Assembly (NCBI GenBank): GCA_001604065.1
Contig: LVAO01000011.1
Coordinates: 1-54,015, forward strand
Source: Clostridiales bacterium Firm_09
GTDB taxonomy: Bacteria; Bacillota; Clostridia; Christensenellales; DTU072
Direction of reading: 5' to 3'
Length of the DNA stretch: 54,015 nt
Below the pieces are notes generated by a model that was not told the DNA's origin, did not search any database, and saw only the letters and a list, made by a program, of their open reading frames with translations. Of the stretch, positions 357 to 53,956 are shown piece by piece. The position numbers were made by a program, and so were the translations under genes. Each line of letters opens with the position of its first letter. The first letter of the stretch is position 1.

Positions 357-566
357 ATGGCATGTATAAAAAAGGCTGAAACAATGGGCGAAAATAAATT
401 CTTTTTCATATTCATCATCGCGATTGTACCGTTGCAAAGACTCCCGGTTCTTATCGGTGTCTTTTTTATTGCGTGCAGAATGACCTGCGCCATTCATATG
501 ATTCCGAATAATCCGGTTTTAACGCTCGCGGAGAAGCTTTCATACAGGGAATGTGCATGCGTATGA
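357..566 (+). CDS. Possible small hydrophobic protein (69 aa), unknown
   Basis: A 69-codon frame lies between the riboswitch and the first matrix gene. Residues about 13-41 are strongly hydrophobic, suggesting one membrane segment, and there are three cysteines. Its stop codon overlaps the downstream start region; in fact an ATGA overlap exists with the alternative downstream start at 563, the usual sign of translational coupling. Against it, the nearest strong SD (331-338) is 19 nt from the ATG. Another start at 384 has only a weak SD. I do not recognise the family. It may be a genuine small protein of the operon or just part of a long leader. Confidence 0.35.
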   Translation: MACIKKAETMGENKFFFIFIIAIVPLQRLPVLIGVFFIACRMTCAIHMIPNNPVLTLAEKLSYRECACV

Positions 567-1255
567 ATCGGAGTTCAGAAAAATTCATCGCCAGTCTTGT
601 TATGGCCATCGTTGCGGGCGTAGTCTGTCTTGCGACCTGTGCCGCGTATCTTTTTGCCTGGTTTTCTTCCGGTCCCGCAAAAAGCAATATCGAGGTTGAT
701 ACCAGAGAAGAAAGAAATCTGGATATTTTTTTGAGTACCGATGGCCAGATCTGGAGTGATGAGCTTTATGATATCCTGTTTGATGATATCTTCTGCGGCA
801 GTCTGAACCGGAAGATATTGTATGTGAAATGCGTCAATAATGACACAAAAGACCTTCTGGTTTCGCTCTTTTTCTGGCCGCCGGACGGTGTGAACGGAGC
901 CGAAGTTCCATACATAAGCGACAATCTGTATTATTATCTGGGTTCACAGCTCCAGATTTCTGATATCCGGGCCACCACAGAAGGCCAGACAATCGATCTG
1001 ACGGAATATGCCGTCGGAAAGGATAAGTATCTTGTTGCAACCAGTTCTCAAGGAGTCCTCAAAGGGCAGGCAAACAGCGTTGATGCTGCCATCGAATCGA
1101 TTCCACGTCTGGATCTGTTGACGAATCTGACGCTTCCCGTTGGCACTACAACGATTATTGAGATCGAAATTACCTTTGTCGACAACGGGACCAATCAGAA
1201 CATATTTCTGAATTCAGAAAACTATGTATGCATCCGGAAGCTGACATTAAGATAG
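557..1255 (+). CDS. Secreted protein with SipW/TasA-type signal peptide
   Basis: About 232 aa, first large gene of the c-di-GMP riboswitch operon. The N-terminus has charged residues and a long hydrophobic stretch ending in the AxLFAWFSSG type motif, like the AxAYFSD motif of substrates of the signal peptidase SipW (TasA, TapA, camelysin). The rest is a beta-rich, Asp/Asn-rich extracellular-looking domain with no anchor motif that I can see. The start at 557 was chosen because an AGGGA SD lies 6 nt upstream; 551 and 563 are alternatives. By family analogy it would be exported and join a surface or biofilm structure. The next gene follows after 17 nt. The family of the mature domain was not recognised. 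Confidence 0.75.
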   Translation: MRMNRSSEKFIASLVMAIVAGVVCLATCAAYLFAWFSSGPAKSNIEVDTREERNLDIFLSTDGQIWSDELYDILFDDIFCGSLNRKILYVKCVNNDTKDLLVSLFFWPPDGVNGAEVPYISDNLYYYLGSQLQISDIRATTEGQTIDLTEYAVGKDKYLVATSSQGVLKGQANSVDAAIESIPRLDLLTNLTLPVGTTTIIEIEITFVDNGTNQNIFLNSENYVCIRKLTLR

Positions 1256-1272
1256 AAGGAGAAAGGAAGAAT

Positions 1273-2004
1273 ATGAAAACATCCTCTTCAAAGCTTACTC
1301 TTTTTCTCTCCTTGCTGCTGCTTGCCGCTGTTTTCGCGCTTACAGCCGGAACAGTATACGCCTGGTTTTCCACATCGCGTTTTGTCTCGGACAATACCTT
1401 TACTACGGGTCAGTTGGATACGTCTTTGGTGCTGTATTATTGGAATAAAGAATCTTCGGACGAAAACAAATGGACCATCGTACCCTCTACAGGTATGAGC
1501 AGCTCATTTTATCCTTATTTCGGCTCATTGGACAACATGATCGAAATGCCTGAAGATTGCAATGTTTTTCTTAAAATGAAAGTCCATGATCCCCTATGCG
1601 CCAATTATTATTATAACGTTATGGTTGATGAAATCATCATTCATGTATACCGTTTTATCAATCAGACCTATACGCCGGTGACGGATAACGCCCTCGACTA
1701 TTATTCTGCCGAAGTACCTCAATCCTGCATTCAGAATTATTTCTGCCACTCCGCTGCCGACAATCTGACACCATCCGCACTTTCCTCCTATCTGCCATCA
1801 ACGGGAGATACGATTGACACTCCCGGCCAGTCATTCTCGGACGGCGTATACATCGGCAACGGAGAATGGATTTATATAAAATTAGAACTCCGTTATGAAG
1901 AATTCATGAATATCATCCGGAGAGTACCTGCAGAATACATGCCATACAGCATCGAATTCGTATTAAATCTGAACAGCGAAACAAGGACGGCAGACAATGA
2001 ATAG
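1273..2004 (+). CDS. TasA/camelysin-like secreted matrix protein
   Basis: 243 aa, second of three SipW-type proteins. The start at 1273 is set by a strong purine-rich SD (AGAAGGAGAAAGGAAG) directly upstream; an earlier in-frame ATG at 1228 lies inside the previous gene. Residues about 5-30 form the signal segment, ending in GTVYAWFSTS, then NTFTTGQLD, which matches the NTFTAGTLDL block after the SipW cleavage site in TasA and camelysin proteins. Size is close to TasA (about 260 aa). TasA proteins are exported and assemble into extracellular fibres of the biofilm matrix. The sequence after the signal is diverged, so fibre formation is inferred. The stop overlaps the next start by 8 nt. Confidence 0.8.
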   Translation: MKTSSSKLTLFLSLLLLAAVFALTAGTVYAWFSTSRFVSDNTFTTGQLDTSLVLYYWNKESSDENKWTIVPSTGMSSSFYPYFGSLDNMIEMPEDCNVFLKMKVHDPLCANYYYNVMVDEIIIHVYRFINQTYTPVTDNALDYYSAEVPQSCIQNYFCHSAADNLTPSALSSYLPSTGDTIDTPGQSFSDGVYIGNGEWIYIKLELRYEEFMNIIRRVPAEYMPYSIEFVLNLNSETRTADNE

Positions 2005-5000
2005 ATTATCAGAAAATCATCTAATCGGACGAAATCTTATTCTGTTTGCCATCGGTCTGTTTTGCATCATGATGCTGTTCATGAAACCGGCAGCCGCCTA
2101 TTTTTCGGATACCGCCCAGGATACAGCCGGCGCAGTCGTTGATGTCGACAACCTGTTCGGCCACCTTACCAATCCCCCCAATCCGACCGCGCCATGGGGA
2201 ACCGAAGGCAATCCTTTTCTTATTTACGAAAACAGGCATCTGCTCAACCTGTATTCCCTCCAGAACCAAAAGGACATCACCGCTATCAACGAAAATACCG
2301 TGTTTCAGGTCTCAACCCCCGAAGGCAATCCCTGCTATGTCGGCGGCAGTTCGATCAACGATTTATTGGAGATACCCTCGATAGGAAGTGAAGATTTCCC
2401 CTTCATCAGTACCATTCGCGGCGTAACAACCAGCAATCCCGTCTTTTATGCCACTCTTCCGGGCAACCAGATTTCCGACACTTCCACCCTCGGCAACCTC
2501 CGCGTCCTTGCATATGAAGGACAGATTGACATCGGCCTGTTCGGCAATGTCGGACGTCCCGACCCCAACGACCCGGACGGCACCAATGAAGAAATCGTTA
2601 CGACAGGCTACATCGGCAATCTTCTGCTGAGCAACATTCAGATATCATCGGATACAACGGGCGCCGTCCCGAAACCGGAGCATACGGATTATTTTTCTAC
2701 GACAGAAGATTTGGAGTCCAACCATGTCGGCATCCTTGCCGGGCACGCGCAGTACTGCAGAATAGAGAATATCAGTGTGCATTACACCACGACAATCGTT
2801 TCGGGCAAGCCTGTCGCAGCGCTCAATGCGTTCGAAATCCTTGCAGACCAGCCCACAACCCAATATACAACGGCGGGCGGCATTCTGGGTTTTTATAAAC
2901 AAATCATGGTGGCCGAATCCACTTTGCCGGTAAATTACAATGGTGTCAACACCTCGGGCGGACTGTACAGCGGTTTTGGACTAGGTATTCTGTATTCGGA
3001 AGATATCTGGGAGTATATGGAAGAAATCTATGGCGCGCCCATGACGAACAGCAGCTACGGATTACAGCAGACACAGGAACTCAACAACCTTTATGCCGAC
3101 ACGGTAATCCTGGACGGACTGGAAAAAACGTATTTCAAGATCGGTGTATTTACTTTTGTACACTCCCGGCAGTCGTTGAGCGAGGACAGAATCGCCAAGC
3201 TTTGGGAAGTTCAGGACAGCAATTTATGGAGCATTTCCAGCACCGGCACCTACAACACGCCTTCTTCCCAGACTCTGTACACCAACGGAAAAAAATATCT
3301 CTGTACAGAACTGAACGCAAGCAATCTGACCGCCGCATCCGGATATTACACTCCTTCCACCAGCGTATTCGGCACCAATTATACCGCATACAGGTTTATG
3401 GTTGTATATGAAAAGGATGGAATCCAGTATGCCCTCATGAAATACGGCGAAACCGTAGCCGCCCAAAAAATCGATACTTCAAATTTTATCATACCCGAAG
3501 ACCAGCTAGTCTATTATACGTTCCGAGTGGGCACCACAAGAAGCGTAATCGGCACGACTCCGGATGGTCTGACCAGATATTCCTATGGTTCATACGCTCC
3601 TTTACGGCTGAACGGAAGCGGTTACACATCTTATAATCTGCAATATCTGTGTTACGGACAAACGATAACCAATTCTTCCGGACTGATTGTAGAAGAAGAG
3701 CGTCCGCTGCGCATATATGATACCCTGAGTTATATGTATTCTTCCTCTTCGACGAACTTTCCCGAAGGCGTAAGATTGTATAAATACTCAAGCAACTATA
3801 CATTTTATATGCGAAGGTCTTATTCAAGCTCTTCCACGCTTTCAAATTATCTGCAGTTCACGGTCGGCAGGGGCTACATCACAACGACGTCTTCTTCAAG
3901 CGCCACCTATGTCAAGATTTATGCCGTCAAAGTCGCTCCCGAAACCAATCCTTCGGGAGGCGGAACCGATTTTGATTATGCTAAGGAAATCTACACTCCC
4001 ACCTCGGCGACATCGGTGACCTATGATATGAGCCAGAATGTCCTTTTCTACAGCGGAACCTATAATTCGGATACTCCAAGCTTAAAATACCGGTATCAGC
4101 TCAAATCATTGGAGTCGCTCAACTGGCCGAACAACAAGGACTTTCCCATCGATTCTGTAGACTCTGTGTTAAAAATGGCCGACCCAAGTTCATTTTATTA
4201 TCTGAACAATACCTTTTATGGGATATTGCGCAATATACCGATGCCGGATAACAAAGTATTGTATGCGCCGCGCGCCAGCGTCGCCTTTACGGTAAACGGA
4301 ACAGGCATCGCAAACGATATGGCCCGAATCAACGTCATCGTTGCGACGGACCCGTCCCAATTGGTCGATCAGATGATTGAAGTCAGTTATTTCAATACCA
4401 ATACAAGCGGAGTACCCTCGGAAAACAGAATCATTTACGAAAGCGCAACCTTTGTTTTGCCGCCTGTGCCGGGTTCTCCGGTTTCGGGGGGATTGACCTC
4501 ACGCACCACTCCGATCATGGTATCGACCGACGGAGGTTCCAGTTACATAACCGCTTATCCCAATCTGAATACCCTTCTCATCGCCTATACGGTTTCTGTG
4601 CCCTGCACCACTTCAAGAAGTTATTTTCTCTATTCTGCCAAAGGCTCCGCAAACTTCGTTTATTGCTCCGTCGAAAAGACAGCGTCCAATCTGAGCAACC
4701 CGAAGCATAAAAATGATGCTTTCTTTGAAGTCCCCAACGGTATCGACTATGTGTTTGATATCGAGAGCGGCTCCGACAGAAAGATCGTCACCATAAATGA
4801 CAGCGCCTATGTACAATCCCTGATCCTGCCGTCTTTCGGAATCGTCAATACGTCCTCTACGGATACTTCTCTTGTCATTGTCAATGCAAGGAATTTTACC
4901 TACAGCATCCTTCGTGTCTATGACACGACAGAATCAAATTACAAATTGTATATCGATATCATTGCCCCGGGAGAAAGCCCGCCGAATACTTACCAGGAAA

Positions 5001-5134
5001 TCATCGAACAGATGAACTTCAATTTTTATGACGCAACGTATTATGACACGACCCTGGGACTACGAGTCTTTTCGGATATTGTCATCATGACAATCAACAA
5101 CGTCGAAGTAGACTGGAACACGATTTATACGTAG
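1997..5134 (+). CDS. Large secreted adhesin-like protein, SipW-type signal
   Basis: 1045 aa, last and largest gene of the operon, overlapping the previous one by 8 nt with an AAGGAC SD. The N-terminal hydrophobic segment ends in PAAAYFSDTAQDTAG, a clear SipW-type motif. Next comes a GTEGNPFLIYENRHLLNLY block, and later stretches such as VGILAGHAQYCRIENISV resemble GLUG-type repeat modules of cell-surface adhesins. Residues about 550-680 are very rich in Ser, Tyr and Thr. There is no LPxTG sorting signal and no C-terminal membrane anchor, so it may be held by the other matrix proteins. It probably acts outside the cell in adhesion or matrix formation. No enzymatic motif was seen. Confidence 0.75.
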   Translation: MNRLSENHLIGRNLILFAIGLFCIMMLFMKPAAAYFSDTAQDTAGAVVDVDNLFGHLTNPPNPTAPWGTEGNPFLIYENRHLLNLYSLQNQKDITAINENTVFQVSTPEGNPCYVGGSSINDLLEIPSIGSEDFPFISTIRGVTTSNPVFYATLPGNQISDTSTLGNLRVLAYEGQIDIGLFGNVGRPDPNDPDGTNEEIVTTGYIGNLLLSNIQISSDTTGAVPKPEHTDYFSTTEDLESNHVGILAGHAQYCRIENISVHYTTTIVSGKPVAALNAFEILADQPTTQYTTAGGILGFYKQIMVAESTLPVNYNGVNTSGGLYSGFGLGILYSEDIWEYMEEIYGAPMTNSSYGLQQTQELNNLYADTVILDGLEKTYFKIGVFTFVHSRQSLSEDRIAKLWEVQDSNLWSISSTGTYNTPSSQTLYTNGKKYLCTELNASNLTAASGYYTPSTSVFGTNYTAYRFMVVYEKDGIQYALMKYGETVAAQKIDTSNFIIPEDQLVYYTFRVGTTRSVIGTTPDGLTRYSYGSYAPLRLNGSGYTSYNLQYLCYGQTITNSSGLIVEEERPLRIYDTLSYMYSSSSTNFPEGVRLYKYSSNYTFYMRRSYSSSSTLSNYLQFTVGRGYITTTSSSSATYVKIYAVKVAPETNPSGGGTDFDYAKEIYTPTSATSVTYDMSQNVLFYSGTYNSDTPSLKYRYQLKSLESLNWPNNKDFPIDSVDSVLKMADPSSFYYLNNTFYGILRNIPMPDNKVLYAPRASVAFTVNGTGIANDMARINVIVATDPSQLVDQMIEVSYFNTNTSGVPSENRIIYESATFVLPPVPGSPVSGGLTSRTTPIMVSTDGGSSYITAYPNLNTLLIAYTVSVPCTTSRSYFLYSAKGSANFVYCSVEKTASNLSNPKHKNDAFFEVPNGIDYVFDIESGSDRKIVTINDSAYVQSLILPSFGIVNTSSTDTSLVIVNARNFTYSILRVYDTTESNYKLYIDIIAPGESPPNTYQEIIEQMNFNFYDATYYDTTLGLRVFSDIVIMTINNVEVDWNTIYT

Positions 5135-46458: not shown

Positions 46459-48654
46459 TCAGCCGCTTATCAGAAATTCGGTCAGCCTGCCGTTGTCCCA
46501 CGCGATGGTGACGGTTTTGCCGCCTCTTGCCTTTAAACCGGATATTCTGCCTTTCTTCCAATTGGAAGGAAGCGCGGGAAGCGGTTCTATCTTGCCGGCA
46601 TGGCTCTGAAGAAGCATTTCGGCAATGCCTGCGGTCACGCCGAAGTTGCTGTCAATCTGAAAGGGAGGATGGGCGCCCAATAATGAGGCATAGCAGCCGC
46701 TCACACGGTTGGCGGGTGTGGACAGGCGGAAGATATTTTTTAATATCTTATATGCTTTGTCGCCGTCTTTCAGCCGTGCATGCATGCAGACCTTCCACGC
46801 CAGACTCCAGCCCGTCCCGTCATCGCTGCGCCTTTCCAGCGTTTTTCTGCATGCTTCTGCCAGCAGAGGCGTACCTTCCGGTGTGATTTCGCTTCCGGGA
46901 TGCAGCCCATACAGCAAAGAAAGGTGCCTATGGGCCACTTCCACCTCTTTATAATCCTCATACCACTCCTGCAGATAGCCTTTGGCCGAGATGTTGTACG
47001 GATAAATTCTGTTGAGAGCTGCGCGCGTTTTGTGATACAGCGGACTCTCTAAACCGAGAATGTCGATTGCTGTAAGATAGTTCTTGAACAGTTCGCGGAT
47101 GACTGCGGCATCAATGGTTGCGCACTTATTGTAAGCATAACGTTCGCTTTTTATATAGAATTGATTCTCCGGACTTGCTCCCGGTGACGGAATAAGATAG
47201 GAGGTTTCTTTATCTTCGCTGAGATAATCAAGATAAAAACGCACGGCACCCTCCATAAGAGGAAGGGCCGTATCCTTCAGAAAATCCTTATCGCCCGTAA
47301 ACAGATAATGCTCAAAAAGATGACTGCACAGCCAACCCGAAGAACTCATGCACATCGCATAAGCCGACGGATTTCCGTTGCTTTCTGCACCCACAAGCGC
47401 GGCATGCCCCCATATATCCGAATTATGCCCGGCTATCCAGCCGCTCATGCCGAAGGTTCGGCGGGCGACATTTTCTCCTGCCGCGGCAATCTTCTTGATC
47501 TGCTCAATGAACGGTTTGTGGCACTCCGAAAGATTGCAAGGCTCTGCCGGCCAATAATTCATCTGGGCATTGATGTTGATGGTATAATTGCTTGACCACG
47601 GCGGGCGCACGTTCTTGTTCCAGATTCCCTGCAGATTTGCGGCCTGTGTGCCTTCTCTTGAGGAGGATATCATCAGATATCTTCCGAAATTGAACAGCGT
47701 GACCGCTAGACTGTCATTGTTTGCCTCCTTGTCGTGCGCCATTTTGAGCGCTTTGCGGGTGCTTTCGGGCGAGGAAGACGCATCGTTCAGATCGAAAGTG
47801 ACCCTGTTGTACAAAGAGTGGTAGTCCGCGATATGCTCGGCTTTGAGCGCGTCATAACCCTTGCTGATTGCGTCGGCAAGCCTTTTGCGCACGATATCTT
47901 TGGGACATTCTGTCCCGTCATAAGTGGTTTTTGATGTATAATAAATAACCAATCTGCGGAAATCAATGATACGGATACCGCCCATCAGATATTGCACCTT
48001 GCCGTCCGTCACAAATCTGAGTCCCGCCCAGAAAGTCATCCCCTTGTTATTGCTGTCGTAGACAATCGGCTTGGGCGAGTAGTGATAGTTGGGTGTCACC
48101 TTGGATGGCGCCTCTACGCGGAGCCAAAAGATGCCGTCTTCATAGCTGGAACCCCCTTTAAGCGGGCACTGAAAATCAATCCGTATCCGGTTGGAATAGG
48201 GAAACTCCATCTTTTTTACATAGCAGCCCGCGGGATGCGATACAAAACTTTCTGTCAGGCAGGGTTTGCCGTAGTTTTTGTAGGTGCAGCGCAGAATCGC
48301 GTTGTCGATATCAAGCGTGCGTCTGTAATGGGTCGGGAACGGAGGATAAGAAGAGATGCGAAGCCTGCCTGCTGTCAGATAGGATTCGGTATATTCTGCA
48401 AGCATATTCTTATTAATGAGCTTCTCAGCTTCAGAAAAATTGTTTCTTGCAAGGGCTTCCCTCGCTTTCTGAATAATTCCCGGCGCATCAACAGTTTTGT
48501 CCTTGCCGTAACCGGACCAGAAGGTATCATCATTCAACCAGATGCTTTCTATAAAAGGGCTGCAGGTATCCATGATACCGATATTGCCGTTGCCGATTGG
48601 ATAACAATCTTCCCACCGCTCTGCCCAGAATTTGCTTTGCAAAAATGTTTTCAT
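46459..48654 (-). CDS. GH95 alpha-L-fucosidase, cytoplasmic
   Basis: 731 aa. Family GH95 is recognised from [13 protein letters not shown] (Asn360 and Asn362), [12 protein letters not shown], the catalytic acid Glu496 in SPGASPEN, and Asp668 in [12 protein letters not shown]. An N-terminal GH65N-like beta domain is followed by an alpha/alpha barrel and a C-terminal beta domain. It inverts at alpha-1,2-linked fucose (or alpha-galactose) residues of host glycans. No signal peptide, so the substrate is imported first, fitting the GPH symporter next to it. The start at 48654 has GAGAAGGAA upstream. The addB gene begins 14 nt after the stop. Confidence 0.93.
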
Positions 48655-48675
48655 GGTTCCTTCTCCGTATTCATT

Positions 48676-48704
48676 ATTATACAGTGAAAAGATGATTTCG
48701 TCAA
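48676..48704 (-). promoter_or_regulatory. Promoter of the GH95 gene
   Basis: Minus strand TTGACG (48704-48699), 17 nt, TATAAT (48681-48676). Confidence 0.8.
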
Positions 48705-48875
48705 CGGCGGCCTCCATGAGGGCAACAATCTGTATGCAGTGCGATCGCCTCAGCCGGAAAATCCAGCAATTCTCGGGCAATCCTTATCGAAGATATTCTT
48801 TGATGAAGTCTTTCCTCCTGCGCAGCTTATAATAGAATACGAACAACCATGTCTTCCCTGAAAAATTCCGGCTGT

Positions 48876-50384
48876 TCATGAATAAATTTCTCCCAATTTT
48901 GTTGCGCTTTCTGCCGCTTTTTTGCGAGCTCGGCGTTCTTCCAGTTCTTTTGTGATGCGATCGCGGGTATGTTTGTCAATGCGGATAAATAAAAGAGGAA
49001 TGAGAAACAGCAGGGAGCCGAAGGCGGGTGCAAGAATAAAGACTTCCCAGGACCAGTTCTTGAAAGCTTCGGAAACCATAGGCGAACCGTTTCTGCCTTC
49101 GAATGTATTGGCGTCATAAGCAAGAAGCGCATAGGTAAAACCGGTGATGCCCGTATTGATGGCACCGGTAATCTTCGCCGACATATTCTGCATGGCAAAG
49201 ACGGTCGCTTCGTTTCTTTGTCCCGTCTTCCATTCAATATAGTCGATACTGTCTCCCCACAGAGCGGTGACCGCGATTCCGTTGAGAGAAGAAGGCAATC
49301 CGGCAACGGACAATATACCCGCGATGGCAAGAATATTAAGGCCCTGGTAGCCTATGAATTTGCCGTAAAAATAAGCGCAGAGGCGGATGGAAAGATTCAT
49401 CACCATCTGAAGAATAAGGACGTTCTTGAAGCCGCCCAATGCCCTTGCGATTTTGGTTGCAAGAAACATCATCAGTGTTGCGGGAAGGCCCACGATAATC
49501 CCATAGACAAACGATACCGTCATGCCTTCCAATCTGAAGCCTCCGATATAAACTGTCTGATACATGTACTTGAAAAACAGCGCACTGTCCATATGAAGGG
49601 TCAGGGAGCCAAGGATTTGGCCAAGAATAATCAAAAGCACAATCTTGTTCTGCAAAATAAGCTTGAAAGAAACGCTTACGTTGCCTTCAACCTTTTTGGT
49701 TTTCACACGCTCTTTTGCAGAATACCCGAAAAGTGCAACAGACATGCCGCCGAATGAGAATAGGACAGCGATAATCAGAAGCGTATATTTTTCTTCCAGA
49801 AGCGGCGCCTGATAATGGTTGGGATCTATCGAACCATTGGTCAGATCCAATATAATCGGGATAAGTCCCGGCAAAAGACTGCCGACCATCGCACCGATTC
49901 TTGCAACCTGCGATACCCTGTCGCGCTCTTTTGGGTCGGAAGTGATCAAAGCGGTCATCCCCCATTGCGCCACATCGTGGAAAGTATAGAGCATTTCGTA
50001 GACGAGAAAACCAATCACGCTTAATGTCAGCGTCAGCGGGACACTCCCGAAATCAACAAACATGATGATGCCGATAATTCCGATGGGCAAAGGCATAATT
50101 TTGAGAAACGGGCGCAATTTTTCGCCGTTCTTGAATATATGCTTGTCCACAATCGCTCCGATGATCGGATCATTGATTGCGTCCCATATTTTGGGAATCA
50201 TCAGACAAAGGCCCACGACAACGGAATTGATTCCCAATGCGGTCATCAGAAAGTATTTCACCCAGTTCGAAATCGTGCCGTAAGTCACGTTCTGCCCGGC
50301 GATGCCTGTGGCAAAACGCAATAGTTCTTTATTGGGAACTTGATGTTCCGTATCCTTCCCAAGAATTCTGGTAACCAGGCTCAA
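48876..50384 (-). CDS. GPH-family sugar:cation symporter (MFS)
   Basis: 502 aa with about 12 membrane helices. The PKIWDAINDPIIGAIVDK block near residue 65-82 is the hallmark of glycoside-pentoside-hexuronide symporters (PF13347), as are the ALITSDPKERDRVS and QRNEATVFAMQNMSAKI segments. It likely imports an oligosaccharide or glycoside with a cation. The start is TTG at 50384, with GGAGG 6-7 nt upstream. It is placed between GH95 and the glycyl-radical fusion gene and may feed the fucosidase. The substrate is inferred from context. Confidence 0.85.
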   Translation of the reverse strand: MSLVTRILGKDTEHQVPNKELLRFATGIAGQNVTYGTISNWVKYFLMTALGINSVVVGLCLMIPKIWDAINDPIIGAIVDKHIFKNGEKLRPFLKIMPLPIGIIGIIMFVDFGSVPLTLTLSVIGFLVYEMLYTFHDVAQWGMTALITSDPKERDRVSQVARIGAMVGSLLPGLIPIILDLTNGSIDPNHYQAPLLEEKYTLLIIAVLFSFGGMSVALFGYSAKERVKTKKVEGNVSVSFKLILQNKIVLLIILGQILGSLTLHMDSALFFKYMYQTVYIGGFRLEGMTVSFVYGIIVGLPATLMMFLATKIARALGGFKNVLILQMVMNLSIRLCAYFYGKFIGYQGLNILAIAGILSVAGLPSSLNGIAVTALWGDSIDYIEWKTGQRNEATVFAMQNMSAKITGAINTGITGFTYALLAYDANTFEGRNGSPMVSEAFKNWSWEVFILAPAFGSLLFLIPLLFIRIDKHTRDRITKELEERRARKKAAESATKLGEIYS

Positions 50385-50558: not shown

Positions 50559-53500
50559 TTATACATAGCATGTTCTGTTGATAATAATCTTCTTAAGATC
50601 GTCCGACAGCTCATTGAAATACGCGCAATAACCCGCGACGCGGACCATAAGATAAGGATATTTTTCCGGATGGTCGTAGGCATCCTGCAAGATGCGGCGG
50701 TCAATGATATTGGGTTGGAACTGCATGCCGCCCGTCGTCAAAAAAGTCTTGAAGATTGCAGCAAGATTTTTTATGCCGCCGTCGCCTTGAAAAAGCGATG
50801 CATCCACCGTAAACGTAACCGTTGTGCCATTGGGCGCATAATCTGTGAAATTGACGGCCGAAATTGCGTTAAGGGAAGAAAAAAGATCCGCCTGTTCCAT
50901 GCCGTAATGGGGTGTTACGCTGTTGGCAAGCGGCACACCTGCAAGACGTCCGGACGGGAGAGCCTGCGTCACTTTGCCATAGCGGTCGCTGACATTCAGC
51001 GCATAATATCCCGCCGAATACCAACCGTTGCGGGGAGAATCCGGTACGGAAGCGAGCGCCTTATTGTAAATTTCCATTACCTTTGTGACCCATTTCGCGG
51101 GCTCTTCGGAGCTGTCGTCGCCGAATTTGGGGACGGAGAGCAACGCTTCACGTATCTTCTGGCGTTTTTCGCCTTCAAAATTATAGTCGCAGGCATCCAG
51201 AATTTCTTCCAATGTATATAATTTCTTTTTGAAAACCAGCTCTTCCACCGCATACAAAGAGTCTGCCACATCGGTCACGCCGACTGCCTGAATACCGCTG
51301 GTGTTGTACGTCGTGCCGCCTTCATAGACATCTTTTCCCGTACGGATGCATCCTTTATATAAAGCAGAAGCAAGCGGCGTTGTGAAGCCCTCGCGAAGAT
51401 GCTTTTCTATATTCTGATGGTCTTTGAGGATTCCGTTTGCAAGGCAATTGAGACGTTTCTGAAAGTTTTCGATTAGTTCCTCCATGCTTTTGGGTGGATG
51501 ATAGGTATATTTGCCGTTTCTGACCTCGATGCGATGCACAATTCTTTTGTGCAGCCGCAGCAATGCGCGTGAGAAAGGATTCTTGCCCTTCAGATTGTAT
51601 TCTATGAATTTAATCATGATTTTTTGAAAAATCTCTTTGTCTGAGAGATTCCATAAATCATTATCGTGTCCCTTGAGCGCCTGAAGCAGCGGTAGTGTCA
51701 GGTTCATATTGGCGCAGTCGGTATTGCCGAAGTGATCATCCGAAGCATTGGGCTCCACACAACCAACAATCGCATAATTGCGCGCGTTCTCTACAGAAGT
51801 GCCATAGTGACGCTGAAGGGATTCGATATAGATATTGTCTGCAAAAAGTTCGGGCATCGGACAGCCGTTGATATAGATTTCGGCCAGCCGCTCCATATAT
51901 CTGTCCGGATTCTTCTCATTGATTCGCGCAACCATATTGATGGCAAGGGGCTGCAATTCGCAGGCGTCTATCAGCATATAGGTCAAATCGTTGACTGCAT
52001 CCTTGCCGTTTTTGTCCACACCTCCGAAGGTCAGTGCCTGATCGACAGAGAGCGTTTCGAAAAGCTTGCTGACATTAAGATAGGAGTCGCCGTCGTTAAC
52101 CAATATGCACTCGTCCATCTTGAGGATAAAGAGACAGATAAGCTCTTTTGCCTCCTCATAAGTGATGCGCCCGGCATCCAGGTCCTTTTTATAATACGGA
52201 TATAAAAACTGGTCCATCCTGCCAAAAGAAACGGCATTTTCGTAGGACTCTATACACAGTGCGATTTGCAAAAAGAGCATGCTCTGGAGAGCCTCCCGGA
52301 AGGTCTCCGCGGGATACTTGGGCACTCTTCTGCAAACCGCAGCCATTTCTGCAAGCTCTTTTGAGCGCTCGGGATTGGCCGCAAGGCGGCTTTCTTTTTC
52401 CAGCATAACCGCATAACGCTCCCCGAATGCTTCCAATGCGCGCAAAGAAAGAATGGCACCATCATAAAAATCCTGATTGTTTTGCGGATGCTCGCGTTTT
52501 GCAGCTTCGATTTCGGCAATAATGCCGGTGGTTCCAAGTGCAAGAAACCGATCGAAATTGACAATGAAGTGGGCAATTGCCGCCATATTGTTATTAAAGC
52601 CTGCAATCATCTCGGACGAACGCGCAAGCGTTGGCAAAAAGTCTTTGATATGGGGATTGACCTTGCGCAAAAGGCAGTGTTTTAGCCAAAAAGGAAAAAT
52701 ATAGAAATAGAACCGCATCCGCTCTTTGAAAGAACACTGGAAAGAAACGGGCTTCTGACGATTGATTTTATACAAAAACAGAATCATAAGAATGCCGTAA
52801 TGCTCTTCCCACACCTGTCCGCCGACGCGCTTGGAAGTGAAATTACCGACAAGCAGCTCATCCGGATAAACCTTGACTGTCTTATGCCTGAGAACATAGT
52901 CCAGCCGCTCCGCTCGATGGATAGGAACGGGTTTCTTGAAACCGTTTTTGCGGTAATATCGGGTTTTAAGTTCGGAAACTTCCATGCACAAGGCGCGCTT
53001 GCTGGTCCGGATGGCTTCCTGCACACGCAACACCCTGTCAGTAAAAACTGCTTTTTTGGGCGGATTATCTGTCTCTCCGCTGACCGCTTTGATTCCATAT
53101 TGAATAAACAGCCGGATGGTATTTTTATGAGAGGCGCGGGCTTCTTCTTCGGTTGCCGCTATTTCAGGAACTTCAATGCAAAGACGCTTGGCTTTTTCTT
53201 TATACATGCTGTTGTATTTGAGTATCTCAATGGTATGCACACCCTTGGAGTGAAGAAGCTGTGCGGTCTTTGCTATATTATCTTCGCTGTCATTGAGGTT
53301 CGGCACCGAAACCATGCGGAACTTTATATTTGCTTTGCGTGCAAGCAGCTTGTCAAGGTTCCCGCGTATGAGCGCCGTCCCGGCACCGGTCAGCTTTTTA
53401 TGCAGCTCCTCGTCTGCGGCTTTGATGTCCACAAAAAAGAGTTCTATGTATTTTGCCAGCCTTTCTATTGCGGCCCATGGCGCGCAGAGTGTCGTCTCCA

Positions 53501-53840
53501 CCGCGACGGACACACCTTCCTTTGCAAGAAGCGCCAGAAACTCTTCCAGTTTGTCCGCATTCTGAAGAAGCGGTTCGCCGCCAGACAGCGTCACGCCGCC
53601 TCCGGTAGAAAGATAATATTTTTTATCTCTGAGAACGGCTTCGGCCAATTCTTGCGCCGTGTAGGTTTTTGTGATGTCGTTTCTGTCTGCAAGCCCCTCC
53701 GGATTCTGACACCACAGGCATCTCAGCCCGCAACCATGAAAAAATACGGTTGTACGCATACCCGGTCCGTCATGGACGCAGGTCCTTTGAATCTTGAATA
53801 CCTCTAAACCATTGGTCTTGTTCGCGATGACTTCGGACAT
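50559..53840 (-). CDS. Activase-glycyl radical enzyme single-chain fusion
   Basis: 1093 aa. Residues 1-255 are a radical-SAM glycyl radical enzyme activase: CX3CX2C (Cys37, Cys41, Cys44), GGE at 87-89 and VDIK at 137-140. The auxiliary ferredoxin-like Cys motifs of most non-PFL activases are absent. Residues about 262-1093 are a complete glycyl radical enzyme: GNFTSKRVGG near 332-341, the thiyl loop VGCVEP (Cys694, Glu696), and the glycyl radical loop RVAGYCAYF (Gly1070) near the C-terminus. CVEP-type members include propanediol, glycerol and choline lyases, but which reaction this one does is not shown. Normally the two proteins are separate genes. SD AAGGAGAAC, promoter at 53957-53984. GPH and GH95 genes follow. 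Confidence 0.9.
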   Translation of the reverse strand: MSEVIANKTNGLEVFKIQRTCVHDGPGMRTTVFFHGCGLRCLWCQNPEGLADRNDITKTYTAQELAEAVLRDKKYYLSTGGGVTLSGGEPLLQNADKLEEFLALLAKEGVSVAVETTLCAPWAAIERLAKYIELFFVDIKAADEELHKKLTGAGTALIRGNLDKLLARKANIKFRMVSVPNLNDSEDNIAKTAQLLHSKGVHTIEILKYNSMYKEKAKRLCIEVPEIAATEEEARASHKNTIRLFIQYGIKAVSGETDNPPKKAVFTDRVLRVQEAIRTSKRALCMEVSELKTRYYRKNGFKKPVPIHRAERLDYVLRHKTVKVYPDELLVGNFTSKRVGGQVWEEHYGILMILFLYKINRQKPVSFQCSFKERMRFYFYIFPFWLKHCLLRKVNPHIKDFLPTLARSSEMIAGFNNNMAAIAHFIVNFDRFLALGTTGIIAEIEAAKREHPQNNQDFYDGAILSLRALEAFGERYAVMLEKESRLAANPERSKELAEMAAVCRRVPKYPAETFREALQSMLFLQIALCIESYENAVSFGRMDQFLYPYYKKDLDAGRITYEEAKELICLFILKMDECILVNDGDSYLNVSKLFETLSVDQALTFGGVDKNGKDAVNDLTYMLIDACELQPLAINMVARINEKNPDRYMERLAEIYINGCPMPELFADNIYIESLQRHYGTSVENARNYAIVGCVEPNASDDHFGNTDCANMNLTLPLLQALKGHDNDLWNLSDKEIFQKIMIKFIEYNLKGKNPFSRALLRLHKRIVHRIEVRNGKYTYHPPKSMEELIENFQKRLNCLANGILKDHQNIEKHLREGFTTPLASALYKGCIRTGKDVYEGGTTYNTSGIQAVGVTDVADSLYAVEELVFKKKLYTLEEILDACDYNFEGEKRQKIREALLSVPKFGDDSSEEPAKWVTKVMEIYNKALASVPDSPRNGWYSAGYYALNVSDRYGKVTQALPSGRLAGVPLANSVTPHYGMEQADLFSSLNAISAVNFTDYAPNGTTVTFTVDASLFQGDGGIKNLAAIFKTFLTTGGMQFQPNIIDRRILQDAYDHPEKYPYLMVRVAGYCAYFNELSDDLKKIIINRTCYV

Positions 53841-53956
53841 AGCGGTTCTCCTTAATAAAGGCAGATTCTATTGTATTGTATGAAGCACGGCAAAGCAAAT
53901 TGCAAAAAGGCATATCCGCAAAAACAAAACAAGGCATAAAACACGGATTTTACCAT

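Follow-up and report, generated by a model that had tools for sequence, protein, structure and literature searches.

Glycyl radical enzymes (GREs) and their activases are familiar as two separate proteins. The glycyl domain of a GRE is flexible and has to reach a separate activase (PMC12590467), and it is disputed whether a GRE dimer becomes activated in one half or in both, the half-site reactivity of PflB (PMC12338860). Here we analysed a gene of Clostridiales bacterium Firm_09 (Christensenellales; DTU072) that joins both partners in a single reading frame. The window, i.e. the whole stretch of DNA analysed, comprises the 54,015 bases of the entire contig LVAO01000011.1 (GCA_001604065.1) and belongs to a 1.44-Mb genome bin of 32 contigs that is 79% complete. 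Judged from its sequence, the gene product is very probably a one-component GRE that carries its own activase; it would be activated within the chain or by its dimer partner, and is probably an eliminase.

Architecture and distribution of the fusion gene

The fusion gene starts 175 bases away from the contig end. Conservation of its residues was assessed in a 55-row alignment of the window protein with 54 of 56 full-length fusions (L070, which starts at residue 32, and L079, by its neighbours a near-copy of L062, were omitted). The following features were annotated.

50559..53840, minus strand: activase-GRE fusion gene with ATG start, 1,093 amino acids and no internal stops; coordinates include the stop codon
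53957..53984, minus strand: promoter-like TTGACA-16 nt-TATAAT with 12 of 12 consensus matches and TG ahead of the second hexamer; a consensus match only
53847..53853, minus strand: Shine-Dalgarno (SD)-like AAGGAGA, 6 bases upstream of the ATG
53082..53807, minus strand: radical S-adenosylmethionine (SAM) activase domain, residues 12-253, with limits from predicted structure elements; Pfam and PFL-AE match
53709..53732, minus strand: CX3CX2C cluster motif C37/C41/C44, invariant in 55/55 aligned fusions
53040..53096, minus strand: junction, residues 249-267, poorly conserved
50562..53039, minus strand: GRE domain, residues 268-1093 (PFL-like plus Gly_radical); Pfam, PDB sequence match and model
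51753..51761, minus strand: thiyl loop C694-V695-E696, in 55/55 aligned fusions
50616..50645, minus strand: glycyl loop VRVAGYCAYF, residues 1066-1075, with the radical glycine G1070, in 54/54

Pfam assigns Radical_SAM (32-191; 1.5e-16) and Fer4_12 (24-110) to the activase half, and PFL-like (two stretches, the best at 268-724; 8e-134, 448 bits) and Gly_radical (972-1076; 1.4e-19, 71 bits) to the GRE half. GRE membership is indicated by both of the latter domains, which exceed the Pfam cut-offs, together with the Cys and Gly loops. Besides the cluster cysteines, C694 and E696, the residues S86/G87/G88, D708 and H424 are invariant in all 55 rows, position 89 is E in 37 rows and D in 18, and the only row without G1070 ends before it. 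Both halves, as aligned, keep their main catalytic residues across the fusion family. GYC at C1072 was rejected as a fusion-specific mark; it also occurs in the separate GREs L108, L111 and L137.

A preliminary description of this DNA had read the frame as an intact activase followed by an intact GRE, with no stop at the junction and a single SD and promoter. Our results agree: C37/C41/C44, G87-G88-E89 and D138/K140 of VDIK are all found in the activase half, and C694/E696 and G1070 in the GRE half, with the thiyl and glycyl loops conserved. The 1,093-codon frame is uninterrupted at a point where relatives are fused too, and TTGACA-16-TATAAT and AAGGAGA lie upstream, with no recurrent internal SD-plus-start near the junction. 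Promoter-like sites number 9 in the whole window, against 5.1 expected by chance.

To collect relatives, GTDB representatives were scanned with 8 aligned fusions; of 209 confirmed relatives the best 80 were kept, giving 79 loci. Altogether 65 loci match the window protein at 51-74% identity; the junction could be assessed in 64 of them, and all 64 are fused there, with none split. The frame is full length, running from residue 40 or earlier to residue 1050 or later, in 56 of the 65 loci, and 6 others cross the junction and end at a contig edge. L086, whose frame begins at residue 209 at a contig edge, was counted as spanning the junction, and L114 has an intact junction with a frame break further on in the GRE half. 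The sole uninformative locus, L089, begins past the junction. In the remaining 14 loci (27-34% identity; L112 at 27% was counted here), activase and GRE lie in different frames. The fusion hosts comprise Bacillota, Smithella/Syntrophaceae, Myxococcota, Spirochaetota, Lokiarchaeota and Sigynarchaeum.

A sequencing or assembly error might have erased the stop between two ordinary genes, given a draft bin of this completeness, a gene near the contig end and an A6 run inside the junction. The fusion is not an artefact of this kind, because the two halves join at the same position in all 64 informative relatives, which come from other assemblies. Moreover, the segment 249-265 is 17 residues long in 54 of the 55 aligned fusions and 16 in the other, and a frameshift at the A6 run was rejected since A/T runs of at least 6 occur at the junction in just 5 of 55. 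The chance of such an error is negligible. Two outcomes had been named beforehand that would overturn the fusion, namely homologues that always show two genes and a stop lost by sequencing error: at 51% identity or more the opposite of the first was seen, and the second is excluded by the fused homologues elsewhere.

Within the window's own family, the fusion was found in 9 of 40 genomes (own included), of which 8 have full-length frames (two copies in G024) and one has a frame cut by a contig end (G013). Some contigs of this survey (G handles) are identical to contigs of the GTDB scan (L handles), so the two counts are not additive. The family that contains the Smithella genome G430 has a full-length or near-full-length fusion in 14 of 51 genomes, and fragments in G472. 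Among 391 genomes drawn evenly from the window's class, with about two candidates scored per genome, a whole-length match at E <=1e-60 was obtained in the window's own genome only; of 7 further matches (28-30% identity), six have an internal stop and one is the GRE part alone. From the family surveys and the class-wide draw, the fusion is therefore maintained where present yet rare overall.

The Sigynarchaeum genome G433 has two full-length copies (G433:C32:13906-17172, plus-strand copy G433:C58:25462-28719; the former on the minus strand). Some fusion copies reside on contigs of 200-480 kb, and one Lokiarchaeota fusion contig bears a gene that resembles a small GTPase by eye. Plasmid records match the fusion in 320 cases, all below 60% identity, 36 of them with a place covering at least 80%; among the matches listed, the 6 annotated plasmid records name two features.

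Junction, selection and origin of the fusion

The majority residue averages 49% across residues 249-265; together with 48-71, 386-413 and 740-785, the junction is one of the most poorly conserved parts of the protein. Two ordinary proteins could thus be produced by post-translational cleavage, which is compatible with the sequence, or by an extra internal start. An internal start for the GRE half was rejected, however: no column at residues 235-300 combines a start codon with an SD of at least 4 bases in more than 2 of 55 rows. Nor would retention of a single frame in bacteria and archaea be needed if the halves came apart. We consider separation into two proteins quite unlikely.

Selection was estimated in 40 close pairs of homologues, which are not independent of each other. 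The dN/dS ratios were 0.04-0.23 for the activase half (36 pairs with finite dS), 0.02-0.22 for the GRE half (37 finite) and 0.09-0.45 for residues 223-267. By this measure, purifying selection acts on both halves in close relatives.

Phylogenetic trees were reconstructed separately for each half, with fused rows drawn from the 55-row alignment. All 28 fused rows form one clade in the GRE-half tree (with 26 separate rows) and in the activase-half tree (with 34 separate rows), at SH-aLRT 100 in both cases. In a second GRE-half tree with 22 fused, 14 close and 5 other rows, all 22 fused rows again form one clade (100/100); one close row, L117_3895 (813 amino acids), is a non-GRE with a branch length of 10 outside this clade. 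In the two GRE trees a long branch, of 1.8 and 2.1 changes per column, leads to the fusions. The fusion lineage probably arose once. The earlier claim of a true single polypeptide is borne out by the 64 fused relatives, by the clade that each half forms, and by purifying selection on both halves in close relatives.

The nearest separate rows are largely the same loci in the 28-row GRE tree and the activase tree (L102, L108, L109 and L111), which fits the fusion of a cognate pair. Seven close separate loci have both genes intact. The activase comes first in five of them (L102, L104, L108, L136, L138), with frames overlapping by 20-56 bases in 4 of these 5 when gene starts are called at the first start codon, and the GRE gene comes first in L109 and L111. 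The fusion perhaps originated from an activase-first operon like that of some of these separate-gene cousins. Transfer between lineages is suggested by the 22-row GRE tree, in which bacterial and archaeal copies are intermixed and Lokiarchaeota group (support 95/62) with a row from Syntrophomonadaceae. After its origin, the fusion probably reached other phyla, including Asgard archaea; for single contigs, wrong binning is an alternative.

Reaction type, gene neighbourhood and further GREs

Pyruvate formate-lyase PflB uses the adjacent Cys-Cys pair C418/C419. This pair is absent from the fusions (C694-V695 in 55/55), where C694 and E696 make up the CxE of eliminases, and the score against the pyruvate formate-lyase family TIGR01255 (110.3 vs 994.2 bits) places the window protein outside it. 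Solved propanediol dehydratases have identical residues at the positions aligned with C694, E696, D708 and H424. Because these four are invariant in the fusions and matched in this way, the GRE half appears fairly likely to be of the eliminase type.

The window protein also scores below the cut-offs for the PFL2/glycerol dehydratase subfamily TIGR01774 (487.3 vs 678.2 bits) and for choline trimethylamine-lyase, HypD, sulfopropanediol dehydratase and the indoleacetate and hydroxyphenylacetate decarboxylases (220-345 vs 1000-1150 bits). Among the matches listed, which cover 25 of 32 NCBIfam families, no GRE equivalog reached its cut-off. The GHS in the pocket segment of solved propanediol dehydratases (5i2a, 9rco) is replaced by ENA, with N535/A536 invariant in 55/55 fusions, so that the GRE pocket differs from theirs; the His-Ser pair of GHS presumably corresponds to H281/S282 of glycerol dehydratase. 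Of the marks of diol dehydratases, the fusion thus has the CxE and the aligned Asp and His and lacks the His-Ser pair.

The genes adjoining the fusion in the window and in its relatives include the following.

48876..50384, minus strand: MFS_2 / GPH-type symporter (Pfam), downstream neighbour on the same strand after a 174-base gap
46459..48780, minus strand: GH95 glycoside hydrolase (Pfam), outside the neighbour groups common to fusion loci
L048, L059, L060, L063, L065, L067, L068, L074, L083, L084 and L094, same strand as the fusion: GntR/FCD (FadR-like) regulator, directly upstream

The gap between fusion and symporter contains no minus-strand terminator-like site and one weak promoter-like site (50443-50415), and the two genes are a candidate operon. 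The GH95 enzyme, whose activity we take to be alpha-L-fucosidase, and the symporter suggest fucose use in this organism. From this neighbourhood, the fusion could be a 1,2-propanediol (or glycerol) dehydratase of fucose or rhamnose breakdown: a symporter of the same family lies in the stretch of three other loci (L043, L052, L099), the Roseburia inulinivorans diol dehydratase is the top Foldseek match of the full model, and D708 and H424 are retained. However, ENA stands in place of GHS, no equivalog supports the assignment among the families listed, and the window genome's bacterial microcompartment (BMC) genes lie on a separate contig, in a locus that is eut-type by eye. In addition, 15 of 17 fusion genomes have no BMC shell domain, and the only neighbour group in more than 4 loci is a regulator. 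A diol dehydratase of this pathway is therefore rated as rather unlikely.

When neighbours were clustered across 62 fused loci, 11 loci shared the upstream GntR/FCD regulator (Pfam-checked in L084); the titles of all 11 name Smithella, Syntrophaceae or Deltaproteobacteria. The next largest group covers 4 loci. A conserved operon that would name the substrate was rejected, and the upstream regulator provides a handle for finding the inducer. A link to BMCs was likewise rejected, as the shell domain occurs in 2 of 17 fusion genomes, once as a fragment. The microcompartment locus of the window genome (L128, G000:C27:13001-33000), with 7 BMC domain matches on C27, looks by eye like ethanolamine utilisation. 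In L079:7745-12836, and as the same set in L062, corrinoid, RACo-type and URO-D-type proteins and a GH92 gene adjoin the fusion, a set perhaps for demethylating O-methylated sugars; as family-wide neighbours these genes were rejected, being local only. An anti-phage role was rejected with 0 PADLOC matches.

Elsewhere in the window, a c-di-GMP-I riboswitch was found at 212-286 on the plus strand (Rfam RF01051, 58.4 bits). The frames at 551-5134, located 3' of it, look like secreted proteins by eye.

Fusion genomes carry several more GREs, and 6 of 8 such GRE stretches show no activase (L131-L135 and L137; two are short contigs). The activase half might thus act on other cellular GREs in trans, or perform other SAM chemistry, with the tether being incidental. 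Against this explanation, the halves are never separate at 51% identity or more, the activase and GRE trees agree on the fusion clade, and both other GREs of the window genome have adjoining activases, so that we hold it to be very unlikely.

A second uncommon GRE type of 990-1028 amino acids was observed in fusion-bearing genomes of Spirochaetota, Deltaproteobacteria, Lokiarchaeota and Smithella (L139-L142, respectively). In these proteins an N-terminal extension of ~200 amino acids precedes the GRE.

L139:1263-4256, plus strand: extended GRE
L140:721-3807, plus strand: extended GRE
L141:1030-4002, plus strand: extended GRE
L142:1790-4783, minus strand: extended GRE
L120:152-3145, plus strand: extended GRE

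By eye, the extension resembles the SCP2 sterol-carrier fold. Pfam SCP2 was matched in one of five extended GREs tested (L141), below the cut-off (19.4 vs 21.3 bits, E 0.0013), and L142 is flanked by genes that look by eye like short-chain dehydrogenases/reductases. A lipid or steroid substrate for this type is a guess.

Activase half, proposed mechanism and comparison with known enzymes

The activase half scores 207.9 bits against TIGR02494 (PFLE_PFLC; cut-off 174.35), which assigns it to the GRE activating enzymes, and its nearest solved relative is PFL-AE (PDB 3c8f/8fo0). A ferredoxin-like insert with about eight cysteines is usual in this activase branch and absent from PFL-AE. From the cluster motif to SGG, all 55 fusions have 39-43 residues with 0-1 Cys. 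Among 34 separate activases, 17 have 84-100 residues and 7-10 Cys in this segment, 10 are short and PFL-AE-like, 2 have 4 Cys, and 5 are left unresolved by the pattern. On these counts, the activase half is without a ferredoxin insert. It groups beside activases with the cysteine-rich insert (branch support 90) while the fusions are short; the insert was therefore probably lost in the fusion lineage.

With 55 sequences as input, the AlphaFold2 model of the whole chain reached pLDDT 88.5 and pTM 0.89, and that of the isolated GRE half 91.4 and 0.91. The two differ most clearly in the glycyl domain: the blocks spanning 1041-1093 have pLDDT values of 79, 74, 60, 51, 69 and 67 in the whole chain, compared to 89, 92, 82, 86, 81 and 79 in the GRE-only model, and the strands flanking the glycine (804-807 and 810-813 in the GRE-only model) become a helix (1064-1069) in the whole chain. 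The change in the glycyl domain is local, because Foldseek TM-scores to GREs are nearly equal for both models: for Archaeoglobus fulgidus 2f3o, the top match of the GRE-only model, they are 0.92 (full model) and 0.93 (GRE-only).

We infer that the activase half serves its own GRE and that the reaction is an elimination. In the proposed mechanism, the N-terminal half would use SAM and one [4Fe-4S] cluster to generate a 5'-deoxyadenosyl radical. As this half lacks a ferredoxin insert, electrons for the cluster would presumably come from a separate flavodoxin or ferredoxin. The radical would take a hydrogen from Gly1070, either in its own chain or in the other chain of the dimer, and Gly1070 would then hand the radical on to Cys694. 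With Glu696 as a base, the barrel would eliminate a leaving group from a small substrate.

Several points weigh against this interpretation. The evidence comes from sequence and predicted models, and access of the tethered activase to Gly1070 is hypothetical, as are the self- or partner-activation and the altered radical installation suggested in the preliminary description. All 65 relatives are metagenome-assembled genomes by record title. In the whole-chain model the glycyl loop 1070-1076 scores below 50, whereas the block means are 82-86 in the GRE-only model; this low confidence may reflect competition by the activase half, or noise. At the position aligned with the YH of PFL-AE, whose His presumably has a role at the SAM site, the window protein has N210, and N, H, Q and W occur among the fusion rows listed. 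The window protein is absent from all 40 dN/dS pairs, its nearest relative being 74% identical, and many dS values are close to saturation. The sister group of the fusions is poorly placed, with L109 shifting away in the 22-row GRE tree. Finally, the fixed length of the junction gives weak support, since 878 of the protein's 1,055 windows are equally constant. Constant length is seen in 8 of the 56 windows with conservation as poor, 6 of them at the junction; this hints at most at a role for spacing.

Among the matches listed, no natural GRE-activase fusion is described in the open-licence literature, although a mention elsewhere is possible, and none was found in the portions covered of PMC6325248, PMC12583861, PMC12288474, PMC12590467, PMC11226230 and PMC12338860. 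What is new looks like an arrangement of known parts in a coherent family, so far an uncharacterised form of a well-studied enzyme class. There is about an even chance that it represents a distinct class of self-activating GREs, with activase in a fixed 1:1 ratio, a radical installed and renewable within the dimer, auxiliary ferredoxin clusters given up, and transfer among bacterial phyla and Asgard archaea as one gene without a matched partner. A natural tether would keep the partners together and make the activation complex, the question of activation in cis or in trans, and half-site reactivity directly testable. A one-gene GRE would also suit engineering. Its occurrence in bins of Lokiarchaeota and Sigynarchaeum would extend the radical chemistry known from Asgard archaea.

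When compared with described and related systems, the GRE half shares the barrel fold, the CxE loop and the aligned Asp and His with B12-independent glycerol and 1,2-propanediol dehydratases (1r8w, 5i2a/5i2g, 9rco). It differs from them in its low identity (26-28%), the ENA segment and the fused activase; common diol or BMC neighbours were not found at the fusion loci. The top PDB sequence match of the GRE half is A. fulgidus 'PFL2' (2f3o; 28% identity), an enzyme whose function is not settled. It has YEQA, and the fusion YENA, where diol dehydratases have GHS; unlike the fusion, the solved 2f3o chain is without an activase. Among the separate-gene cousins, L102, L136 and L138 (Syntrophaceae/Smithellaceae; GREs 32-34% identical to the fusion) also have the activase gene directly ahead of, and overlapping, the GRE gene. 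In contrast to the fusion they use two frames, and their activases carry the insert, with 89-95 residues and 8-10 Cys up to the first GG(E/D/V). With the GRE activating enzymes (TIGR02494, PFL-AE), the activase half shares the CX3CX2C, GGE, DxK and DGPG motifs, and it is unlike the known members in that it lies in the GRE chain itself.

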